Below, in pieces: positions 9,309 to 23,641 of a DNA stretch of 64,000 nucleotides. Within the stretch, counting starts at the first letter, position 1. Each line of letters starts with the position of its first letter. This DNA comes from Eubacteriales bacterium (GTDB lineage Bacteria > Bacillota > Clostridia > Oscillospirales > Butyricicoccaceae), in NCBI GenBank assembly GCA_030540435.1, contig JAUNWG010000001.1, positions 1 to 64,000 on the forward strand, written 5' to 3'. The notes beneath the pieces were generated by a model. That model did not search any database, had not been told where the DNA came from, and saw only the letters and a list, made by a program, of their open reading frames with translations. The position numbers were made by a program, and so were the translations under genes.

Positions 9309-9326
9309 TGTCTATTACTCAGCGAC
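9309..9326. repeat. att site, left copy
   Basis: TGTCTATTACTCAGCGAC, identical to 17302-17319. It marks the left junction of the element. Confidence 0.9.
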
Positions 9327-9452: not shown

Positions 9453-10508
9453 TTATTGTAGATTTTGCAGCCGTGCGGCAACCTGCTCTTGTTTGTTTGG
9501 GTACAAATGGGCGTATGTGTTGAGGGTAGTTTCCACTTTTTCATGTCCGAGCCGGTCGGCAATCAGAAGAGGGCTAAAACCCTGCTCGATCAACAGGGAA
9601 GCGTGAGAATGACGAATATCGTGAATCCGTATCTTTTTCACGCCTGCCTTGATGCATCCGCGCTGTAATGCCTTGGTGAGCATGTGCACGGTAAAGTCAA
9701 AGATGCGGTTGTTTTCTTTAAGGTCGTAAATCTGCCCCATATATGCGCTCAGTTCGTCGGTAAGAAACGGGGGCATAGTTATTATGCGATTGCTCTTCGG
9801 TGTTTTAGGTGGCGTTATAACGTCCTTTCCGTCCATCCTGGTGTAGGTCTTGTTAATAGAGATAGTTCCGGCTTCTAGGTCAATGTCTGCCGGAGTCAAG
9901 GCGAGTAGCTCCCCGCAGCGCATACCGGTATAATACAGAAGTTGAAACGCCATGTATGCCGATGGCTTTTTTTCAAGAACCTTCCGAAATTGTTTGTATT
10001 CTTCCAGCGTCCAGAATTGCATTTCTTCCGCTTTGTTTTTGCCAATACTGCCCGCTTTCTTGCAGGGGTTCTCCGGCAGTTTATAATATCTGACTGCATA
10101 GTTGAACATAGCGGATAGCTGATTGTTTACGGTCTTTAGATAGGTCTGTGAATATTCATGAGGATCTGTCATTAAAGCATTCTGCCACTTGCGGATATCC
10201 GACGGAGTAACGCCGCACAACGGTTTCTTTCCAAAATAAGGTAGTATTTTTAATTCAATTATATATTTTTTCTGTCGATAGGTGGTTTCCCGTACACGGT
10301 GCTGCATGTCTTCTAGGTACAGTTTCGTGAAGGAATCTATTGACATATTGATATTCGCGGTTTCACGGCTAAGAAATTCCCGCTCCCATTCAAGGGCAGC
10401 CTTTCTAGTCTCGAAGCCGCGTTTTTTCTTTTTCTTCCGGGTGCCAGTCCAATCGGTATAGTAGCATTGCACTGTCCATGTTCCGTTGGTGTCTTTATTC
10501 GCTGGCAC
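9453..10508 (-). CDS. int: Tyrosine-type site-specific integrase
   Basis: Catalyses integration and excision of the element. The protein has 351 residues. The N-terminal arm-binding domain (about 1-55, with the basic run TRKKKKKRG) is followed by a SAM-like core-binding domain (about 57-150). The catalytic domain carries Arg197 (TGMRCGEL), His296 and Arg299 (IHDIRHSH), His322 (LGHEKVETT) and the nucleophile Tyr332 (NTYAHLY), so all active-site residues are present. The start is GTG at 10508 after AGGAGGTGCAGCC. It lies at the left end beside its att site, as usual, and resembles Tn916/phage-type integrases of Firmicutes. Confidence 0.95.
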   Translation of the reverse strand: MPANKDTNGTWTVQCYYTDWTGTRKKKKKRGFETRKAALEWEREFLSRETANINMSIDSFTKLYLEDMQHRVRETTYRQKKYIIELKILPYFGKKPLCGVTPSDIRKWQNALMTDPHEYSQTYLKTVNNQLSAMFNYAVRYYKLPENPCKKAGSIGKNKAEEMQFWTLEEYKQFRKVLEKKPSAYMAFQLLYYTGMRCGELLALTPADIDLEAGTISINKTYTRMDGKDVITPPKTPKSNRIITMPPFLTDELSAYMGQIYDLKENNRIFDFTVHMLTKALQRGCIKAGVKKIRIHDIRHSHASLLIEQGFSPLLIADRLGHEKVETTLNTYAHLYPNKQEQVAARLQNLQ

Positions 10509-10544: not shown

Positions 10545-11039
10545 CTAGTCGTTGTCTTTCTTGATAGTGATTTTTTCACCGGTTACACGATCTTCAATAG
10601 TGGTTTTCTCTATGTCGTGCGCGATAGCAGCATCCAGCCTGCGCCCCTCTGTAAATTCGGGAATATTTGTCATTTCAGCCGTGCGCTTGACCGCTTCTTC
10701 CTGCCCGTGGGCGTTTAGCTTGCGAAAATTTGTTGTCAGTCTTTCAAGGCGTTCGCTTTCTGCGGCGTCGGCTTTTTTTATGTCTTCCGTAACTTTATTC
10801 CGTGCCTTATCAAAATCCGCGCCGGTTTCATAGGTTTCGATTTCCGAGGAAGCAAGCAACTCTGTTACAGGTATATTCAAAGCGGCTGCGATTTTTTGTT
10901 GCTGTTCAAGTCGTGGTTCTCTTTTCTCGCTCTCGTATTGGCGGATAGTTATTGTGGCAACGCCGAGTTTTTCGGCAAGTTGAGCTTGTGTTAATCCGGA
11001 TTGCATTCGATGTTTTTTTATTTGACTTCCAATACCCAT
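10545..11039 (-). CDS. CI-like XRE-family repressor of the element
   Basis: A 164-residue protein. Residues about 3-60 are an XRE helix-turn-helix (IGSQIKKHRMQSGLTQAQLA, TITIRQYESEKREP, IAAALNIPVTELL). The rest is a charged helical region without a recognisable LexA-type protease domain, so induction by RecA cleavage is not indicated. The start at 11039 follows GAGGTG. It faces the Cro-like gene across a 130-bp region with three ATTC-N5-GAAT operators. It most likely keeps the right-hand genes silent. Confidence 0.88.
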   Translation of the reverse strand: MGIGSQIKKHRMQSGLTQAQLAEKLGVATITIRQYESEKREPRLEQQQKIAAALNIPVTELLASSEIETYETGADFDKARNKVTEDIKKADAAESERLERLTTNFRKLNAHGQEEAVKRTAEMTNIPEFTEGRRLDAAIAHDIEKTTIEDRVTGEKITIKKDND

Positions 11040-11085
11040 AAGATAAATCACCTCTTTTAGATAGAGTATCACATTGAATGAAAAT

Positions 11086-11154
11086 ATTCAAGATGAATCT
11101 CAAAAAACACTTGACAGATTCGAAATGAATTGATATTATATATTCAAATTGAAT
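11086..11154. promoter_or_regulatory. Operator array and divergent promoters of the lysogeny-type switch
   Basis: Three ATTC-N5-GAAT palindromes lie at 11086-11098, 11118-11130 and 11142-11154. The rightward promoter TTGACA (11111-11116), 17 bases, TATTAT (11134-11139) has one operator inside its spacer and one over the start point. A weaker leftward promoter (TTGAAT, 17 bases, TACTCT) overlaps the first operator. Confidence 0.75.
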
Positions 11155-11171
11155 CGGTTGGAGGTGAGACT

Positions 11172-11372
11172 ATGCGAATCAACCGTAGGAAGTTGAATAT
11201 CGCAATGGCACGCGCTTGTATGAAGCCCAAAGACATTGTGAAAGCAGGTATTCCACGTGGAACGTGGTGCCGGTCATTAAACAGCGATGTGAGCGCCGCA
11301 ACAGTCGGCAAAATCGCCCGCGCTTTAGGCGTGGACGTACTGGACATTATCGAACAGGAGGAAAAGCCGTGA
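11172..11372 (+). CDS. Cro-like helix-turn-helix protein
   Basis: A 66-residue protein that is almost entirely one XRE-type helix-turn-helix domain (RKLNIAMARACMKPKDIVKA, SDVSAATVGKIARALGVDVL). It is the first gene of the rightward operon and starts at 11172 after GGAGGTGAGACT. Its position opposite the CI-like repressor and its small size suggest a Cro-type antirepressor. Its stop overlaps the GTG of the next gene (GTGA). Confidence 0.85.
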   Translation: MRINRRKLNIAMARACMKPKDIVKAGIPRGTWCRSLNSDVSAATVGKIARALGVDVLDIIEQEEKP

Positions 11373-11591: not shown

Positions 11592-13565
11592 ATGACCACG
11601 GAATTACAGGAATTTCTATCGCACTTTAAAAACGTGAAGCCGTATAACGGCTATTACATGGCTATGTGCCCGGTACATAACAAAAAAGATACGACCTTGA
11701 GCATTAAGCAGGTCGAAGACGGAAAAATACTATTGCACTGTCACAGAGAATGCAAAACAGAGGATATTGTTGCCGCAGCGGAATTAACAATGGCCGATCT
11801 GTTCCCTGATCGACACAGCGCAGCTTCGGCTTCCCGCGATTTCAAGAAGATCGAGCAGCCGCCAAAGAAGCAGCCTAAGCCGTGGAAACAGCGGTATGAT
11901 ATCGCCGCGTCATACGAATATAGGGACGACGGCGGGCATCTGCTGGCGGTTAAAGACCGGTATTACAAAGACGGTAAGAAGCAACAGTGTTGGCGGCATC
12001 AGGATAGATCTGGTGCATGGTATTACGGCGCGGGTGGCGTAGAACTTCCACTGTATAAGCATGAATGTATCAGCAATCCTGTATTTCTCGTTGAAGGAGA
12101 AAAGGACGTTGACACGATGCTGGCGGGCGGTCTCCACGCTGTCACCAATCCGAACGGCGCGGGCGAATGGAAAGACCGGTACACCGAACAACTGCGCGGC
12201 TATGATGTGTGTATCATCCCGGACAATGACGCGCCGGGAAGGAAGCACGCCGAGACAGCAGCTAACGCCCTACATGGTGTAGCAGCGTCGGTAAAGCTGC
12301 TCGACCTATCCGAACTGTGGCCAGATATACCGGAGAAAGGCGACGTGACCGACTATGTAGAATGGTGTCGGAGCATAGGACGCAAGGATGGCGATATATT
12401 CAATTGCCTGAGCTTGGCGCGGGATGGCGCGTCGGAGTTTGTACCTAATGAGGACAATACCAAAATCGACACCGTTGTCGATTTTGATTGGGGAATGTTT
12501 CGACCATTAAACGATTTTGAAGAAGTCGAACCGGAATGGCTTGTACCACGATGGATTCCAAAGGAGCAAATAACCATTTTTGCATCCGAGGGCGGCGTAG
12601 GTAAAACGTCGATGGTTTGCGACATAGCCGCGGCAATCAGCAACGGCGGGCAATGTATCTTAGACGCAGAAGATATAGAACGTAATCCGGCGAAAGTTTT
12701 GTTCATGACCACAGAGGACAGCATCAGTAAGAAATTGCGGAAGCAATTAAGGCTTGCCGGTGCGAATATGCAAAATATTTTTGCACCAGATCCCCAAAAG
12801 GACAAAGAGTATAAGGCGTTAAAGATTAAATTCGGTTCTCCTGAATTGGAAGCAATGATTGAGCATTTCAAGCCTGCGTTGTGCATATTTGACCCGATAC
12901 AGGGTTATGTGCCGCCGAATATCAACATGATATCGCGTAATGCAATGCGTGATTGTCTCGCGCCGTTGATACCGCTGGGCGAGAAAACCGGATGTACGTT
13001 TATTCTTGTATGTCACAGTAACAAAAAGCGCGGCGCGTTTGGTCGTGAGAGGATTTCGGACTCGTCGGATTTGTGGGACATTGCACGGTCGGTCATAATG
13101 GCGGGATACACAGACCAGCACGATAAAAAAATCAGATATGTGTCAAACGAGAAAAACAGTTACGCAACGACCATGCAAACGATTTTATTTTCCATCGGTG
13201 AAAATCGACAGATTGTTTTTGAAGGGCATTCCGATAAGAGCGATTATGATTTTTCCACGGCGATCTTTGAGGAAAGAGCAAAGAAGCCGCCTGAACCGTT
13301 GAATGAAAAACTCTTGGAAGCATTGAAGGATGCTGCAAGCCCGTTTGATGCCGTCAAGTTTTTTTACGCGGAATTTGAAGAAAAATATGGCGCGACGATC
13401 TACGGCGGCAAGCAGCCTAAAAAAGCTCTTGACCTGATGAAACCACATATGGAAGAAGCCGGGTATTCTTTAATCACAAAACAAATAAAGATCGGAAAGC
13501 AAGGCGGAAAAGGTTTTGTCATTCAGCCGATAAACGACAACGAACCAGAACAGATTGCAGTATGA
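11592..13565 (+). CDS. Primase-helicase fusion, replication protein of the element
   Basis: A 657-residue replication protein. A CHC2-like zinc motif is formed by Cys26, His29, Cys50 and Cys54. A TOPRIM domain follows, with FLVEGEKDVDT (about 166) and IIPDNDAPGR as acidic metal sites. A RepA/KaiC-like AAA ATPase then carries the P-loop EGGVGKTS (about 333) and a Walker B-like ALCIFDPIQGY. The C-terminus is a charged winged-helix-like tail. It should unwind and prime DNA at the element's own origin, like the pri-rep proteins of satellites. The start is ATG at 11592 with AGGTGA close upstream. Confidence 0.9.
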   Translation: MTTELQEFLSHFKNVKPYNGYYMAMCPVHNKKDTTLSIKQVEDGKILLHCHRECKTEDIVAAAELTMADLFPDRHSAASASRDFKKIEQPPKKQPKPWKQRYDIAASYEYRDDGGHLLAVKDRYYKDGKKQQCWRHQDRSGAWYYGAGGVELPLYKHECISNPVFLVEGEKDVDTMLAGGLHAVTNPNGAGEWKDRYTEQLRGYDVCIIPDNDAPGRKHAETAANALHGVAASVKLLDLSELWPDIPEKGDVTDYVEWCRSIGRKDGDIFNCLSLARDGASEFVPNEDNTKIDTVVDFDWGMFRPLNDFEEVEPEWLVPRWIPKEQITIFASEGGVGKTSMVCDIAAAISNGGQCILDAEDIERNPAKVLFMTTEDSISKKLRKQLRLAGANMQNIFAPDPQKDKEYKALKIKFGSPELEAMIEHFKPALCIFDPIQGYVPPNINMISRNAMRDCLAPLIPLGEKTGCTFILVCHSNKKRGAFGRERISDSSDLWDIARSVIMAGYTDQHDKKIRYVSNEKNSYATTMQTILFSIGENRQIVFEGHSDKSDYDFSTAIFEERAKKPPEPLNEKLLEALKDAASPFDAVKFFYAEFEEKYGATIYGGKQPKKALDLMKPHMEEAGYSLITKQIKIGKQGGKGFVIQPINDNEPEQIAV

Positions 13566-14815: not shown

Positions 14816-15091
14816 ATGTCTTTTTTGCTCAGCAGTTTTGACGATGTATGTGCAAGGCTTGAAATGCATGTTGAACGCGCTCTATTCGTCCACGGTGATA
14901 TGACCAATGAAACGAATGAAATTGATTTTGACAAGGATGAACGTTGGAAGCTCGAACTCGTCGGAAGACACACCGCCATGCGTGCTGAAATCATTTTTGA
15001 CTATTTGTGGATGATGAACAATGAAATAGATGAGCTGAAGGAGCTTGTACAGGCATTACAGAACCAGAAGAAAAGTGGTGGTCAGGCATGA
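14816..15091 (+). CDS. Hypothetical protein of the element
   Basis: A 91-residue, acidic, mainly helical protein (SFDDVCARLEMHVERALFVH .. EIDELKELVQALQNQKKSGG) with a short coiled-coil-like C-terminus. CAAGGAG lies 11 bases before the ATG. No family is recognised. The stop overlaps the next start (ATGA), so the two are translated together. Confidence 0.65.
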   Translation: MSFLLSSFDDVCARLEMHVERALFVHGDMTNETNEIDFDKDERWKLELVGRHTAMRAEIIFDYLWMMNNEIDELKELVQALQNQKKSGGQA

Positions 15092-15282
15092 AAATCAAGA
15101 TTACATATCAGTCGGGTGAGCCGGTCACAGACATATTGAACGCTCTTGCGCCGTTCTTTCAGGCAGACCCGCACGCAACCTGTAAAACATCGACCAATCA
15201 CCTACCGTATTATCACATCTATGTGACCTTTACACCACGCGAGAAAAAAACAGATCCGGGCGAGAAAGTCCATATAGATTGA
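15088..15282 (+). CDS. Small hypothetical protein of the element
   Basis: A 64-residue protein (MKIKITYQSGEPVTDILNAL .. YYHIYVTFTPREKK) with a likely beta-alpha-beta fold. It is translationally coupled to the preceding gene by ATGA overlap and has its own GGTGGTCAGGC ribosome site. No family is recognised. Last gene before the small-RNA candidate. Confidence 0.6.
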   Translation: MKIKITYQSGEPVTDILNALAPFFQADPHATCKTSTNHLPYYHIYVTFTPREKKTDPGEKVHID

Positions 15283-15331
15283 CTACTTTCAGGTATTGAG
15301 GGCGGAAAAGTTGCGAAAATCAACAGTTTTA

Positions 15332-15360
15332 TTGACTATACCCCCTATATGTGATATAAT
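15332..15360 (+). promoter_or_regulatory. Very strong sigma-A promoter inside the element
   Basis: TTGACT (15332-15337), exactly 17 bases, TATAAT (15355-15360), with TG at the extended -10 position. It is the strongest-looking promoter in the element and drives the RNA described next, and possibly the capsid genes by readthrough. Confidence 0.8.
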
Positions 15361-15366
15361 AAAACC

Positions 15367-15441
15367 ATAGAGTACCGCCGGTAACGGTTAGCTGATTCGA
15401 GGCATGGGAAACAGTGGAAACGCTGCGCCCATGCCTTTTTT
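15367..15441 (+). ncRNA. Small RNA or attenuator leader ending in a GAAA-capped terminator
   Basis: About 75 bases from the strong promoter to an intrinsic terminator. The outer stem is GGCATGGG (15401-15408) with CCCATGCC (15428-15435), the inner stem CAGTG/CGCTG closes a GAAA tetraloop, and TTTTTT follows. No ORF lies within. It is either a discrete small RNA or a leader that attenuates the scaffold-capsid operon starting at 15541. Confidence 0.6.
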
Positions 15442-15540
15442 CATTGGTGGGGTTTCTATCCTTTCTCCCCGCAAATCGCCCGGCAATACTCTAATATAAT
15501 ATTAGCCGAAACTCACAGGCGTAAAACGGAGGTATTTATT

Positions 15541-16044
15541 ATGAATGAACAGATACAGAACATTGAACAGCCGCAGGACAGCACCCAGCAGGGAGCACCA
15601 ACTCAGCCGGAGGAAAACGGTGGCGCTGGTAAGATGTTCACGCAAGAGGACGTTAATAGAATCGTATCGGAACGCCTGGCACGCGACAGAGCCAATAAGG
15701 GAACGTCTTCCGATGATCGGGAAGCAGGGCTTAATAAGCGAGAAGCTGAACTCCAAGCGCGAGAAGCCCGCCTTGCGCAGATGGAAATTGACAACTTGAA
15801 ATTACGCGTCGCTATGGAGGTAGGCTTACCGCTTGCAATGGCGAGCCGTCTTACAGGCGACGATGAGGATGCAATCCGCGCCGACGCAAATGAGCTGGCG
15901 AAACTGATGAAGCCGCAGCACAAAGCGCCGCCTATGAGAAATCCAGATGCAAAGCCGGGGGCTGCAATTGCGGGATACGGTTCTGAGATGTCCAATACAA
16001 AACATAAACCAAAAAGATATGAAATTGGATATTATGATGATTGA
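15541..16044 (+). CDS. Phage capsid scaffold-like protein (GP20/DUF4355 type)
   Basis: A 167-residue protein with a Gln/Pro-rich N-terminus, the segment GKMFTQEDVNRIVSERLARD that is typical of phage scaffolding proteins, a long charged coiled coil (about 55-100), and a basic, disordered C-terminus. Scaffolds guide capsid protein into procapsids and are then removed. It starts at 15541 after ACGGAGGTATTTATT and lies 6 bp upstream of the capsid gene, the classical order. Confidence 0.8.
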   Translation: MNEQIQNIEQPQDSTQQGAPTQPEENGGAGKMFTQEDVNRIVSERLARDRANKGTSSDDREAGLNKREAELQAREARLAQMEIDNLKLRVAMEVGLPLAMASRLTGDDEDAIRADANELAKLMKPQHKAPPMRNPDAKPGAAIAGYGSEMSNTKHKPKRYEIGYYDD

Positions 16045-16050
16045 TATATT

Positions 16051-16938
16051 ATGAGTATTGAATTAGTAAAAAAATTTGCGCCTTACACCGATGAGGTTTT
16101 CAAGGCGGAATCGAAAACAAGCCTTTTAACCAACAGTGATTTTGATTGGACGGGTGCACATTCTGTTTCCGTGTGGAAGATTAGCACTGTTCCTCTTCAA
16201 AATTATGCGAGAAATCGCAGCGCAGCGGATTATTCCGATCCTGACAGCGTGGCAAGTATTTCCCGATACGGAGAAATTATTGACCTTGACGCGCAGACGG
16301 AAGAAATGCTGCTGAAGAATGACCGTAGCTTTATCTTCAATGTTGACCGGCTGGATGCCGACGAAACAGCGGGACAGTTGGAAGCGGGCAAGGCGCTCAC
16401 GCGCGAGTTGCGGGAGGTTGTCGTGCCGGAAGTTGATAAATATGTGTACGGTGTTATGGTGGAAAAAGCTGGTACAGTAGCAGAACCAGCGAATGCTGTG
16501 GGTTGGAGTGCTTACACAGCTATCGCAAAGGGCAATGAGGCTCTTGACGATGCAGAAGTACCAGAAACAGATCGCGTTATTGTTGTTACACCTGCAACAT
16601 ACCGCAGTTTGAAAGAGTGCCCGGATGTTTACCTTGACTGCGATATTGCGCAGGAAATGCGAATGAAGGGCGTTGTTGCTATGATTGATGGGTGCGCGGT
16701 TGTCAAGGTTCCTGCTGCACGTCTGCCGAAAAACTTCGGTTTCATGATTGCTCATCCGTCCGCAACAGTCGCTCCGGTCAAGCTGGAGGACTACGGTACG
16801 CACACCGATACACCGCTTTCTAGCGGTACAATTGTAACCGGTCGTATTTGCTATGACGCTTTTGTACTCGATAACAAAAAGATGGGTATTTACTATCAGC
16901 CGCTTATCGAATCAGAGACTGGAACGACTGGGGAATAA
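16051..16938 (+). CDS. Phage major capsid-like protein
   Basis: A 295-residue protein beginning MSIELVKKFAPYTDEVFKAE, with SRYGEIIDLDAQTEEMLLKN, a long central helix (LEAGKALTRELREVVVPEVD), and a C-terminal beta-rich half (RVIVVTPATYRSL, MIDGCAVVKVPAARLP, FMIAHPSATVAPVKLEDY). This order of E-loop-like segment, spine helix and P-domain resembles HK97-fold coat proteins of P22/SU10-like phages. Length is normal, so it is not a fragment. Start ATG at 16051 is preceded only by a weak site, which suggests coupling to the scaffold gene. No portal or protease gene accompanies it. Confidence 0.8.
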   Translation: MSIELVKKFAPYTDEVFKAESKTSLLTNSDFDWTGAHSVSVWKISTVPLQNYARNRSAADYSDPDSVASISRYGEIIDLDAQTEEMLLKNDRSFIFNVDRLDADETAGQLEAGKALTRELREVVVPEVDKYVYGVMVEKAGTVAEPANAVGWSAYTAIAKGNEALDDAEVPETDRVIVVTPATYRSLKECPDVYLDCDIAQEMRMKGVVAMIDGCAVVKVPAARLPKNFGFMIAHPSATVAPVKLEDYGTHTDTPLSSGTIVTGRICYDAFVLDNKKMGIYYQPLIESETGTTGE

Positions 16939-17301: not shown

Positions 17302-17319
17302 TGTCTATTACTCAGCGAC
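17302..17319. repeat. att site, right copy, overlapping the pfp stop codon
   Basis: TGTCTATTACTCAGCGAC, identical to 9309-9326. It includes the last three codons and stop of pfp (TTA at 17308-17310 is the stop on the minus strand), so insertion leaves the protein intact. Confidence 0.9.
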
Positions 17320-18543
17320 GATCTTAGCCAGCTTTGCAAAGCGCGGCAGACCATTTTCCTTCTTCATCTGGGTCTCGCCCTGAATCAGCGGCAGAGCGTA
17401 GTTGATGAAGTCCTGAGATACGTTGTTGCCACGCTCGTTGATCCACTCTACCGGAACCTTCTTCTCGTAGTTTGCTACGTCGGACAGGTTCAGCAGCTTG
17501 GTGGTGCAGGTGTAGCCGTTCTCACGGGAGCACTCGAACGCAACCATCTTGTCGGTCTCGCCAGCAACTGCGGAGTTAACAGCAGTCTGACCAGCCAGGA
17601 AGGACTCGTCGATATCAGTCTGGGAAGCGCAGTGTGCAGCGCAGCGCTGCAGCAGAGACAGCTCGATGGCACGAACCTTAACGCCGAGCTTTTCCTTGAC
17701 AACGTCTGCCAGCATAGCAGCCAGACCGCCCAGCTGCGCATGACCGAAGCCGTCGGTAGCAGAGGTCTTAGCCTCGGATACGAAGGAACCGTCAGCATAG
17801 TGGATGCCTTCGGAAACAGCTACGATAACGTTGTGGTTCTTGTCCCAGATAGCCTGAACATCTTCCAGGAACTCGTCCATATTGAAGTCGACCTCCGGCA
17901 GGTAAACCAGATCAGCCGGATAACCAGCGACCTCAGCCAGGGAAGCAGCGCCAGCCAGCCAGCCTGCATGACGACCCATGATCTCAATGATGGAAACCTG
18001 ACCCTTGTCGTATACGTGGGAATCCTGATAAACTTCTGCGATGGAAGTAGCGATATACTTAGCAGCAGAAGCGAAGCCCGGGCAGTGGTCAGTGCCGAAC
18101 AGGTCGTTGTCGATGGTCTTCGGGATACCCATTACGCGGCAGTCATAGCCAACCTTCTTCATATACTTGGAAATCTTGTTGCAGGTATCCATGGAGTCGT
18201 TACCGCCGTTGTAGAAGAAGTAACGAACGTCATACTTCTTGAAGATCTCAAGGATGCGCTTGTAATCGGTGTCATCAACATCCGGGTCAGCGATCTTGTA
18301 GCGGCAGGAACCCAGTGCAGAGGACGGGGTGTACTTCAGAAGCTCCAGCTCAGCCGGGTCTTCCTTGTCCATTACATACAGTTTATCGTTCAGAACACCG
18401 ACAATGCCGTTTGCAGCGCCGTATACGGTGGTGATGGAATCAGAATCCAGACCAGCCTTGATTGCGCCGTATGCGCTGGCATTGATAACAGAAGTAGGAC
18501 CACCGGACTGACCGATGATCATTGCGCCCTTCAGCTCACTCAT
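17308..18543 (-). CDS. pfp: 6-phosphofructokinase, PPi-dependent type
   Basis: Phosphorylates fructose 6-phosphate to the 1,6-bisphosphate, most likely with pyrophosphate. The 411-residue protein has the phosphoryl-donor motif YNGGNDSMDT and the substrate motif GIPKTIDNDL. The Asp after GGN and the Lys in PKTID are the residues that distinguish PPi enzymes from ATP enzymes (GGDGS, PGTID). MGRHAGWLAG binds the sugar phosphate. The ATG at 18543 follows AGGAGG with a 9-base gap. Its promoter is at 18647-18675. The integrative element is inserted across its last codons without changing the protein. Confidence 0.93.
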   Translation of the reverse strand: MSELKGAMIIGQSGGPTSVINASAYGAIKAGLDSDSITTVYGAANGIVGVLNDKLYVMDKEDPAELELLKYTPSSALGSCRYKIADPDVDDTDYKRILEIFKKYDVRYFFYNGGNDSMDTCNKISKYMKKVGYDCRVMGIPKTIDNDLFGTDHCPGFASAAKYIATSIAEVYQDSHVYDKGQVSIIEIMGRHAGWLAGAASLAEVAGYPADLVYLPEVDFNMDEFLEDVQAIWDKNHNVIVAVSEGIHYADGSFVSEAKTSATDGFGHAQLGGLAAMLADVVKEKLGVKVRAIELSLLQRCAAHCASQTDIDESFLAGQTAVNSAVAGETDKMVAFECSRENGYTCTTKLLNLSDVANYEKKVPVEWINERGNNVSQDFINYALPLIQGETQMKKENGLPRFAKLAKIVAE

Positions 18544-18646
18544 AATCAAAAACCTCCTAAATTATCACGAAACAAATGCGGCGGGATTTTGGCAGAAAAC
18601 CACGGGAGATGTGTCCTGTCAAGCCGCACTTTCCGATGTTAAGATG

Positions 18647-21343: not shown

Positions 21344-21391
21344 CAGGGGATGGACCGCGATGCGTCTTTTCGCTGGTTCATCCTCTTTTTT
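21344..21391 (+). terminator. Terminator of ilvE
   Basis: GGATGGACC (21348-21356) pairs with GGTTCATCC (21375-21383), then TCTTTTTT. Confidence 0.8.
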
Positions 21392-21424
21392 ATAAAAATC
21401 AAATTTAAAGAAGGGACAAAAGAC

Positions 21425-23641
21425 ATGAAAAAAGGCACAAAACGTGTGCTGGCGATGTGTTTGGCTTTGCTTGTCGTAATGGGCGGTATGTTCTTTCCCG
21501 CAGGAAGTACGGCAAAAGCGGCAGAGGTCATCACGGTTGGCACAAATGCAGAATTTCCGCCGTTTGAGTACATCAACAATGACGGCGAACCGGATGGCTT
21601 TGACATGGCTATCATGAAGGCCATTGGTGAAGCAGAGGACTTTGAGGTCAAGTTCACCAATATGGAGTTCAAATCTCTGGTTGCGTCGCTGGCGACAGGC
21701 AGTCTGGATGCCGTCATTGCCGGTATGACGATCACAGAGGAGCGCCAGCAGTCGGTCGATTTTTCCGACAGCTATTACACAGCAAAGCAGTGCATTGTTA
21801 TTCCAAAGGACAGCAATATTACCTCGCTGGCAGACCTGAACGGCAAGAAGATCGCCGTGCAGGAAGGCACGACAGGTGATATCCTGTGTACCCCGGCAGA
21901 GGATAATGATGTCATTACAGACGAGAATACAGAAGTAAAGCGCTTCAAAAAGGGCACGGATGCCATTGTCACGCTGAACAACGGCGGTGTCGATGCGGTC
22001 GTCATCGACAAAAACCCGGCAGAAAATTTTGTCGCCAACAATGAAGACAAGCTCAAGATGATCGAGGACGATACCTCTACGGAGGAATATGCGATCGCAG
22101 TTGGCAAGGGCGATACCGAGCTGTTGGAAAAGATCAATGCAGGTCTTGAAAAGATTAAGGAAGATGGCACCTTTGATAAGCTGGTTGCAGAATATATTGG
22201 CGGTGACACGGAGGAAGAGGCTGCTTCTGAGGCAGAGTTTACTATCACGGTCGGTACGAACGCTGAATTTCCGCCGTTTGAGTACATCAACAATGACGGC
22301 GAGCCGGATGGCTTCGACATGGCGGTCATTAAGGCCATCGGCGAGGCGGAAGGCTTTGATGTTAAGATCACCAATATGGAGTTCAAAGCCCTGATCGCAT
22401 CGCTTGCTACGGGCAGCCTGGACGCTGTCATTGCTGGTATGACAATCACGGAAGAGCGCCAGCAGTCGGTTGACTTTTCTGACAGCTATTATACGGCGAC
22501 ACAGTGTATCGTCATTCCGAAGGATAGCCAGATTACCAGCCTTGCAGACCTGAACGGCAAAAAGATCGCGGTACAGGAGGGCACGACAGGAGACATTCTG
22601 TGCACACCGGCAGAGGACAATGACATCATCACCGATGAGAGCACGGAAGTACAGCGCTTTAAAAAGGGAACAGACGCCATTGTCACGTTGAATAACGGCG
22701 GTGTCGATGCGGTCGTCATTGACAAAAACCCGGCAGAGAACTTTGTTGCAAACAACGCGGACAGCCTGAAGCTGATCAAGGACGATACCTCTACAGAGGA
22801 ATATGCAATTGCGGTGGGCAAGGGCAACACCGAGCTGCTGGAAAAGATCAATGCAGGTCTTGCAAAGATCAAGGAAGACGGTACATTCGATGAGCTGGTT
22901 GCCGAATATATCGAAGGAAATACCAGCGACATAGAGGACAGCGACGGAGCGCAGAAAAAGACGTTCCTTGAAAATCTGAAATATGTATTCGTCGACACCA
23001 ATGGCTATCAGCTGATGCTGAACGGCCTGGGCGTTACGATCGGTATCTCGTTTGCGGCAGGCGTTCTGGGCATTGCTCTGGGCTTTGTTCTGGCGCTGAT
23101 GAAACTGACAGAGACGCGCAAAAAGCGTAAGACGGTACTGTCCCGCATCGCAGGCGCGTACATTGATATCATCCGCGGCACGCCGGCAATGGTCCAGCTG
23201 CTTATCATGTTCATGGTAATCTTCCGCAGTAAGTATGCACCGATCGCGGCGATCCTGTCCTTTGGTATGAACAGCGGTGCATATGTTGCAGAAAACATTC
23301 GCGCTGGCATTCTGGCAGTGGACATCGGACAGATGGAAGGCGGACGTTCGCTCGGCTTTACCTATGGCGAGACGATGCGCTATATTATCCTGCCGCAGGC
23401 GATCAAGAATGTCATTCCGGCTTTGGGCAATGAGATGATCACACTGGTAAAGGAGACATCTATTGTCGGCTATGTTGCGATCGTTGACTTGACGAAGGCG
23501 GGCGACTTTATCGTATCGCGTACCTATCAGGCATTCCTGCCGCTGATCGCGGTTGCGATTGTCTACTATATCATTGTAAAGATCATGACCAAGATTCTGG
23601 CTGTTATCGAAAGGAGGCTGCGTCAGAGTGATAATCGTTAA
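21425..23641 (+). CDS. Amino-acid ABC transporter: two fused substrate-binding domains plus permease (GlnP-like)
   Basis: A 738-residue fusion. It has a signal peptide (about 1-35, [14 protein letters not shown]), substrate-binding domain 1 (about 35-262), domain 2 (about 272-498), and a C-terminal permease with about five helices (about 520-735). The EAA loop is [20 protein letters not shown]. Each binding domain starts [20 protein letters not shown], the polar amino-acid family signature. This is the architecture of Lactococcus GlnP, which carries tandem receptor domains for Gln/Glu/Asn. Here the two domains are nearly identical along their length, a recent duplication. Start ATG at 21425. 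The ATPase gene overlaps its end by 14 bp. Confidence 0.93.
21527..22910 (+). repeat. Tandem duplication of the binding-domain DNA
   Basis: Two units of about 680 bp (21527-22200 and 22238-22910) encode the two binding domains. They match over most of their length, often base for base, with mainly third-position differences. Confidence 0.85.

Follow-up and report, generated by a model that had tools for sequence, protein, structure and literature searches.

The late genes of phage lambda lie behind a constitutive promoter, a short RNA and a terminator (PR', 6S RNA and tR'), with Q as the antitermination protein, and the CI RNA of P4 is another mobile-element RNA that is tied to transcription termination. 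The function of Q is described in the accessible part of PMC4825925, P4 CI RNA is named in that of PMC7567579, and two further mobile-element RNAs tied to termination, Gifsy-1 IsrK and Tn916 canT, appear in those of PMC4825925 and PMC11658703, respectively. In LicT/BglG-RAT systems, the antiterminator hairpin overlaps the 5' arm of the terminator and excludes it, a short RNA is made in the off state, and the gene of the antiterminator LicT is located immediately 5' of the RNA target (PMC1489936 and PMC3369936, in the portions available to us). According to the same portion of PMC3369936, the leaders of the ANTAR proteins (EutV, NasR) have two hairpins, P1 and, 3' of it, another which overlaps the terminator. 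ConAn1/conAn2 of pLS20 form a bipartite antitermination system which is processive over many terminators, according to an excerpt of PMC8955417. Regarding satellites, cfPICI carry their own full set of head and packaging genes, including terminases and portal, in the description given by part of PMC10690885.

The window, by which we mean the whole stretch of 64,000 nucleotides that was analysed, contains an element of 8.0 kb between two exact 18-bp direct repeats, the putative attL (9309-9326, TGTCTATTACTCAGCGAC) and attR (17302-17319), the latter overlapping the 3' end of a neighbouring gene on the minus strand (17308-18549). On the minus strand, the element encodes a tyrosine integrase (9453-10508; PF00589, E 3.5e-22; phrog_1, E 3.8e-82) and a Cro/CI-type repressor (10545-11072; HTH_3, E 5e-14). 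On the plus strand, it encodes a divergent small HTH protein (11130-11372, weak match to HTH_26), a primase/helicase (11592-13565; phrog_6088 and phrog_239, E 2e-29), a small protein of 64 residues referred to as sp (15088-15282), a scaffold protein (DUF4355; 15541-16044; PF14265, E 4e-8; phrog_233, E 4e-21) and a major capsid protein, MCP (16051-16938; phrog_422, E 3e-50); small ORFs are also present. The integrase, the repressor, the primase, the att-like repeats and a gene set too small for a phage are the attributes of PICI-like satellites. The ten window ORFs scanned against Pfam and PHROGs include no terminase, portal or tail gene, and we therefore read the element as a phage satellite, not as a phage. 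It resembles cfPICI and other PICI by its integrase, regulators, primase and own capsid gene, but the scaffold and MCP are its only head genes among these ten ORFs, which distinguishes it from the cfPICI as defined in the available part of PMC10690885.

Between sp and the scaffold gene, the original prediction had placed a strong promoter that feeds a noncoding RNA of about 75 bases with a GAAA-capped terminator, directly ahead of the scaffold and capsid genes, and all these parts are borne out. The promoter (TTGACT-17-TATAAT, 15332-15360, plus strand) is near consensus, with a TG one base 5' of the -10 (extended -10) and a CCCCC tract in the spacer (15341-15345); its score of 11/12 is reached by two of the 33 promoter-like sites that an 18-kb stretch has when both strands are counted. 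The RNA (15367-15441, plus strand), taken to start 7 nt downstream of the -10, has a U-run at its end. It comprises the conserved AGUACC on the 5' side of hairpin 1 (15371-15376), the hairpin P1 (GCCG-GUAA-CGGU, 15377-15388, supported by folding and covariation), the segment delta (GCU, 15391-15393), the terminator 5' arm beta (GGCAUGGGAA, 15401-15410), the GAAA loop predicted by folding (15417-15420), the 3' arm gamma (CCCAUGCC, 15428-15435) and the U-tract (15436-15441). The terminator stem joins 15399-15408 to 15428-15437, and the inner stem joins 15412-15416 to 15421-15425. The folding energy of the terminator region (51 nt) is -24.5 kcal/mol, compared to -11.05 (sd 2.29) for shuffled sequences (z -5.9), none of 200 shuffles being equally stable. 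The gap from the end of the U-run to the scaffold gene is 99 nt, and the MCP gene comes next.

The strongest answer to the objection of chance is the conservation of the RNA at the equivalent place in other genomes. With the capsid protein as bait, 80 loci of named genomes and 30 of IMG/VR were assembled, their record titles naming Lachnospiraceae, Oscillospiraceae, Erysipelotrichaceae, Acetobacterium and others; this sample is biased toward capsid neighbours. Parablautia and Acetatifactor strains are examples of cultured hosts with a member of the family. A search for AGTACC alone finds 66 of 108 loci and misses members with AGUC flanks, which is why a covariance model built from 45 members was used instead. 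The model matches the sense strand just 5' of scaffold and MCP in 79 of 100 related loci (E<=0.0054) and is also matched in 9 of 14 further sources, including the window (15369-15443, 55.6 bits, E 1.9e-9), which makes the RNA a member of a family. There is one match per locus, except in L103 (L numbers designate our loci), which has two copies. The distance from the match to the MCP gene ranges from 429 to 1310 nt in the 85 loci measured, and a genus-mate (G036) has the RNA at the equivalent place with 79% identity. Twenty related loci have scaffold and MCP genes and no called RNA, which indicates that the RNA is not indispensable; five of them have less than 500 nt of upstream DNA, and several loci without a model match include too little of it. 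The distant capsid relatives Javan246, phiOH2, Dulem virus 31 and an Anoxybacillus plasmid have no model match.

No Rfam 15 family matches the window at its gathering score; at E<=10, the sole match in 15250-15560 has 12 bits and lies outside the RNA, and nine further loci give just tRNA and one sRNA match, elsewhere. The family is widespread, absent from Rfam 15 in the sequences scanned, and apparently undescribed: within the PMC open subset, we found no description of this RNA or of the switching of satellite particle genes in gut Clostridia. When phage and plasmid records are searched with the locus by BLASTN, the only matches are short and promoter-like (E 0.8-0.9), and we judged them to be due to chance; an IMG/VR search with the scaffold protein as the sole query gave no relative.

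The anatomy of the RNA is conserved. The promoter score is at least 9 in 86 of 88 distinct RNAs, compared to 15% of 1,724 control windows, and 76 of these 88 have an extended -10. AGTACC is found in 84 of the 88, and in 30 of the 34 RNAs which were not selected by the AGTACC search; the RNA starts at or before this motif. The elements follow in the order AGUACC, P1 (variable in sequence and length), nAG, delta, and then the terminator with beta and gamma. Counts here and throughout include related sequences, and permutation leaves this relatedness in. Of the 86 rows of alignment A6, five are weak minus-strand matches and one is L097 (E 0.39). Over 78 distinct rows, 96% of the cells of P1 and beta:gamma are paired and the covariation is 0.589, compared to 0.303 in shuffled alignments (0/500), the alignment having been fitted to these two helices, which favours them.

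The pairing of delta with the start of beta is outside the covariance model. In the 75 rows that are left after removing identical rows and rows gapped in the three columns, all three pairs are formed in 71 (permuted mean 59, maximum 64) and all are strictly Watson-Crick in 49 (permuted mean 32, maximum 42), values that none of 2,000 permutations reaches. In a separate control (78 distinct rows), none of 500 shuffles equals the observed number of paired cells or the covariation score. When beta begins with AGC, GAC, CGC or GCC in place of GGC, delta is altered to match in 14 of 15 RNAs. The pairs with double changes are three, which is no excess (344 of 500 shuffles reach 3). In the window, delta:beta is GCU:GGC and includes one wobble. 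Since beta also pairs with gamma, the predicted delta:beta helix and the terminator are mutually exclusive, which is the hallmark of an antiterminator. Moreover, GGGAA is kept in beta (83/88) and UUCCC is rare in gamma (13/88), which shows that beta is constrained beyond its pairing with gamma.

The leader may also contribute. With a threshold of at least 6 consecutive Watson-Crick pairs, it can pair with gamma or with the sequence that follows the terminator in 61 of the 88 RNAs (permuted mean 25.5, maximum 36). It is complementary to gamma in 30 (mean 7.9, maximum 15) and to the U-tract and beyond in 39 (mean 18.8, maximum 30); in 34 of these 39, the pairing extends more than 9 nt beyond the last G/C of the stem, that is past the likely termination point, so that it would matter in the read-through RNA. 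The leader of the window copy has only a few nucleotides, and its alpha/P0 duplex is therefore weak (-2.9 kcal/mol). The minimum-energy fold of L042 combines leader:gamma, P1 and delta:beta. The leaders of L042, L062 and L092 have stronger alternative helices than that of the window copy. The default fold of the terminated window RNA is the terminator, and equilibrium folds favour it generally (the probability of beta:gamma is at least 0.5 in 67 of 88 terminated RNAs), which suggests that the alternative state needs help to form.

An intrinsic terminator in the leader and, on comparative evidence, an alternative helix that excludes one of its arms are what defines attenuator leaders in general. 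With the LicT/BglG-RAT systems, as far as the sources cited above describe them, the locus shares the exclusive antiterminator, the protein gene immediately 5' of the RNA and the short RNA in the off state. On the contrary, its element is AGUACC-P1-nAG with delta:beta, the neighbour belongs to a family of 50-64 residues without CAT or PRD match, and the RNA precedes satellite particle genes, whereas LicT/BglG-RAT controls sugar uptake. The succession of P1 and a second hairpin overlapping the terminator is as in the ANTAR leaders of the same partial account, but the P1 loops here vary in length, with no fixed loop having residues A1 and G4, and the neighbouring protein has no ANTAR match. The conAn system, compared by description only and from an excerpt of PMC8955417, likewise combines a protein with an RNA where a mobile-element operon of Gram-positives begins, but it is processive, whereas a local terminator switch is indicated here. 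P4 CI RNA, IsrK and canT, whose sequences were compared via Rfam only, differ in place and in inferred mode.

We propose that the RNA is a cis-acting terminator/antiterminator leader, which keeps the "late" operon of the satellite (capsid or packaging genes) silent until induction, with sp as the most likely trigger; from the comparative data, this is probably the case. RNA polymerase would start at the strong sigma-A promoter. By default, beta would pair with gamma, the terminator would form and only the RNA of about 75 nt would be made (OFF). In the ON state, delta, which is the conserved 3' flank of hairpin 1, would pair with the start of beta and exclude beta:gamma, a sufficiently long 5' leader (alpha or P0) could pair with the freed gamma or U-tract, and the polymerase would continue into the late genes. 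The likeliest trigger would be sp, produced from the gene just upstream, which would bind AGUACC-P1-nAG and stabilise the antiterminator like LicT or EutV. In cells, the signal would be given by the induction of the helper. The RNA looks like an on/off switch for the virus-particle genes of satellites.

The original prediction had hesitated between an attenuator and a free small RNA. The fixed place of the RNA, the covarying exclusive helix, the leader pairings past the termination point and sp make the attenuator well supported by comparative evidence, while nothing beyond the expected short terminated transcript speaks for the free RNA. The latter would act in trans on messages of the helper phage or of the satellite, in the manner of P4 CI RNA or IsrK. 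A short RNA is indeed what a strong promoter and a strong terminator should give, and the IsrK promoter produces a read-through mRNA as well as a terminated sRNA, according to the accessible part of PMC4825925. However, an RNA acting in trans need not be fixed on the sense strand before late operons, P1 and its loop are free to vary in sequence and length, the leader pairings use bases beyond the point of termination, and a helix that excludes its own terminator would be superfluous in a stand-alone RNA. A free trans-acting RNA is therefore less likely than the terminator/antiterminator switch, and in itself unlikely.

The spacer of the promoter raises the possibility of another mechanism, in which a Q-like protein would bind the spacer DNA at the C-tract and load onto the polymerase, the RNA being just a terminator. 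CCCC is present in the spacer of 37 of the 88 promoters, compared to 2.5% of random or control 17-mers, and the tract is a possible regulator site; the order of promoter, short leader RNA, terminator and late genes resembles that of lambda PR'-tR'. Yet the C-tract is missing from over half of the promoters, and the covariation of P1 and of the RNA antiterminator delta:beta, which sets this locus apart from that of lambda Q, would be left unexplained. The ten window ORFs have no match to a Q family in PHROGs; the helper could still encode such a protein. We consider this mechanism to be quite improbable.

Regarding the trigger of the switch that we propose, the evidence comes from the genomic neighbourhood. 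Of 96 RNA loci, 83 have a gene for a protein of 50-64 residues whose end lies just before the promoter, and 5 more have it about 1 kb further upstream; it is found in none of 20 loci without the RNA (Fisher p 4e-14, ignoring relatedness), a count that includes 3 RNA loci and 5 RNA-less loci with less than 500 nt of upstream DNA. By eye, L097, scored as lacking RNA and sp, resembles a divergent member that has the two, and L137, scored without sp, has a similar ORF. When the same 394 genomes are searched independently with the RNA model and with an sp profile, the two agree at 9 of 10 places each, and 8 genomes are common to both, compared to 0.2 expected (hypergeometric p 6e-15). The sp gene stays with the RNA where the downstream operon differs (L134, L136, L138, L146, L147, L149, L157 and L159). 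This co-occurrence could be mere linkage. The licT gene occupies the equivalent position relative to its RAT site, which makes sp the obvious candidate factor; the antiterminator may possibly come from the helper, but one encoded by the satellite is a better candidate.

The AlphaFold model of sp has a confident beta-alpha-beta-beta core (pLDDT block means 88-93, residues 1-50). The charge is positive in 67 of 71 members (median +5), and the window copy has a net charge of 0. Comparison of sp with Pfam, PHROGs, NCBIfam and PDB sequences gives scattered weak matches and no known domain, and no CAT, PRD or ANTAR family is among the matches listed for the 71 members against Pfam. Fold comparison gives matches (MinE, 2kxo, Z 4.8, rmsd 3.1 over 57 residues) that are too weak for assigning a fold family, and the lack of better matches carries no weight as evidence. 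If sp is a sequence-specific antiterminator of about 55 residues, it would represent a new family of RNA-binding proteins as well as a compact regulatory part. The defined RNA, its covarying switch helices and the candidate protein are small enough for in vitro or Bacillus work.

The linked sp, together with the covariation of delta:beta and of the leader, also argues against the RNA region being an unregulated insulator, whose terminator would stop early read-through, the promoter being basal or a by-product and the late genes using another promoter after induction. By eye, Javan246, phiOH2 and the Anoxybacillus plasmid, which have no RNA, do show a terminator-like hairpin and a T-run before the scaffold gene, but an insulator does not need a near-consensus promoter upstream of its terminator, and we regard this explanation as very improbable.

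The leader is not confined to capsid operons of one type. Capsid-independent searches were carried out with three DNA patterns and with the RNA model, which finds 10 places in 9 of the 394 genomes. The RNA precedes TerL in L146 and L147, TerS in L136 and L159, and an HK97-type major head gene in L134; in L137, L138, L149 and L157, the genes next to it are unassigned, and after them come genes that are sigma-like or regulator-like, or a tape-measure protein. Its presence before terminase and HK97-type capsid genes indicates a portable "late operon" leader, the common theme being small elements and their operons for particle building or packaging. More tentatively, the new RNA and the family of beta-alpha-beta-beta proteins of about 55 residues might form a portable two-part antitermination module of phage satellites across Clostridia, which would control whichever particle-building operon lies behind it (scaffold/capsid, TerS or TerL). 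The RNA can also serve as a marker for satellites that capsid or terminase searches overlook. A structural RNA of the particle, similar to the packaging RNA of phi29, is hardly credible and was set aside together with any capsid-specific role, because, although the RNA sits in capsid modules and some members (L062, L092) fold as closed junctions with paired ends, it also precedes terminase operons with no scaffold or MCP gene in the DNA examined there, its size varies widely, and what is conserved in it corresponds to the parts of a terminator switch.

Another conserved element of the locus (15504-15532, plus strand) consists of a small hairpin (AGCC..GGC) and the Shine-Dalgarno sequence of the scaffold gene. 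Here and in relatives, including some without the RNA, a hairpin AGCC..GGC or GUCC..GGAC precedes GUAAAACGGAGG, which is located at the ribosome-binding site of the scaffold gene; a loose motif matches 63 of 92 scaffold genes, and the element is perhaps a translational operator.

Many satellites (L021, L022, L152, L159, L136, L138 and others) have a sigma-70-like factor or similar regulator behind the capsid genes, which forms one cluster of 38 loci and matches phrog_351 in L159, L136 and L138. A tape-measure-like protein of 655-657 residues is encoded downstream in two RNA loci (L137:6510-8474 and L139:5499-7469), which suggests manipulation of the tail as well as of the head. L103 has two capsid/RNA copies 8.5 kb apart (at 2673 and 11186) and in L115 the RNA comes a long way after a capsid gene that is truncated; such arrangements are to be expected of satellites of about 8.5 kb that are circular or in tandem.

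Elsewhere in the window, a single ORF (21350-23641) encodes two near-identical tandem domains and then another domain, as read from the translation; we take the tandem pair to be solute-binding and the last domain to be permease-like. Last, we note that L122 (PP511318.1, Dulem virus 31) is filed as Microviridae, a taxonomy which looks wrong since its annotation has a terminase, a portal, a tail sheath and a tape measure.
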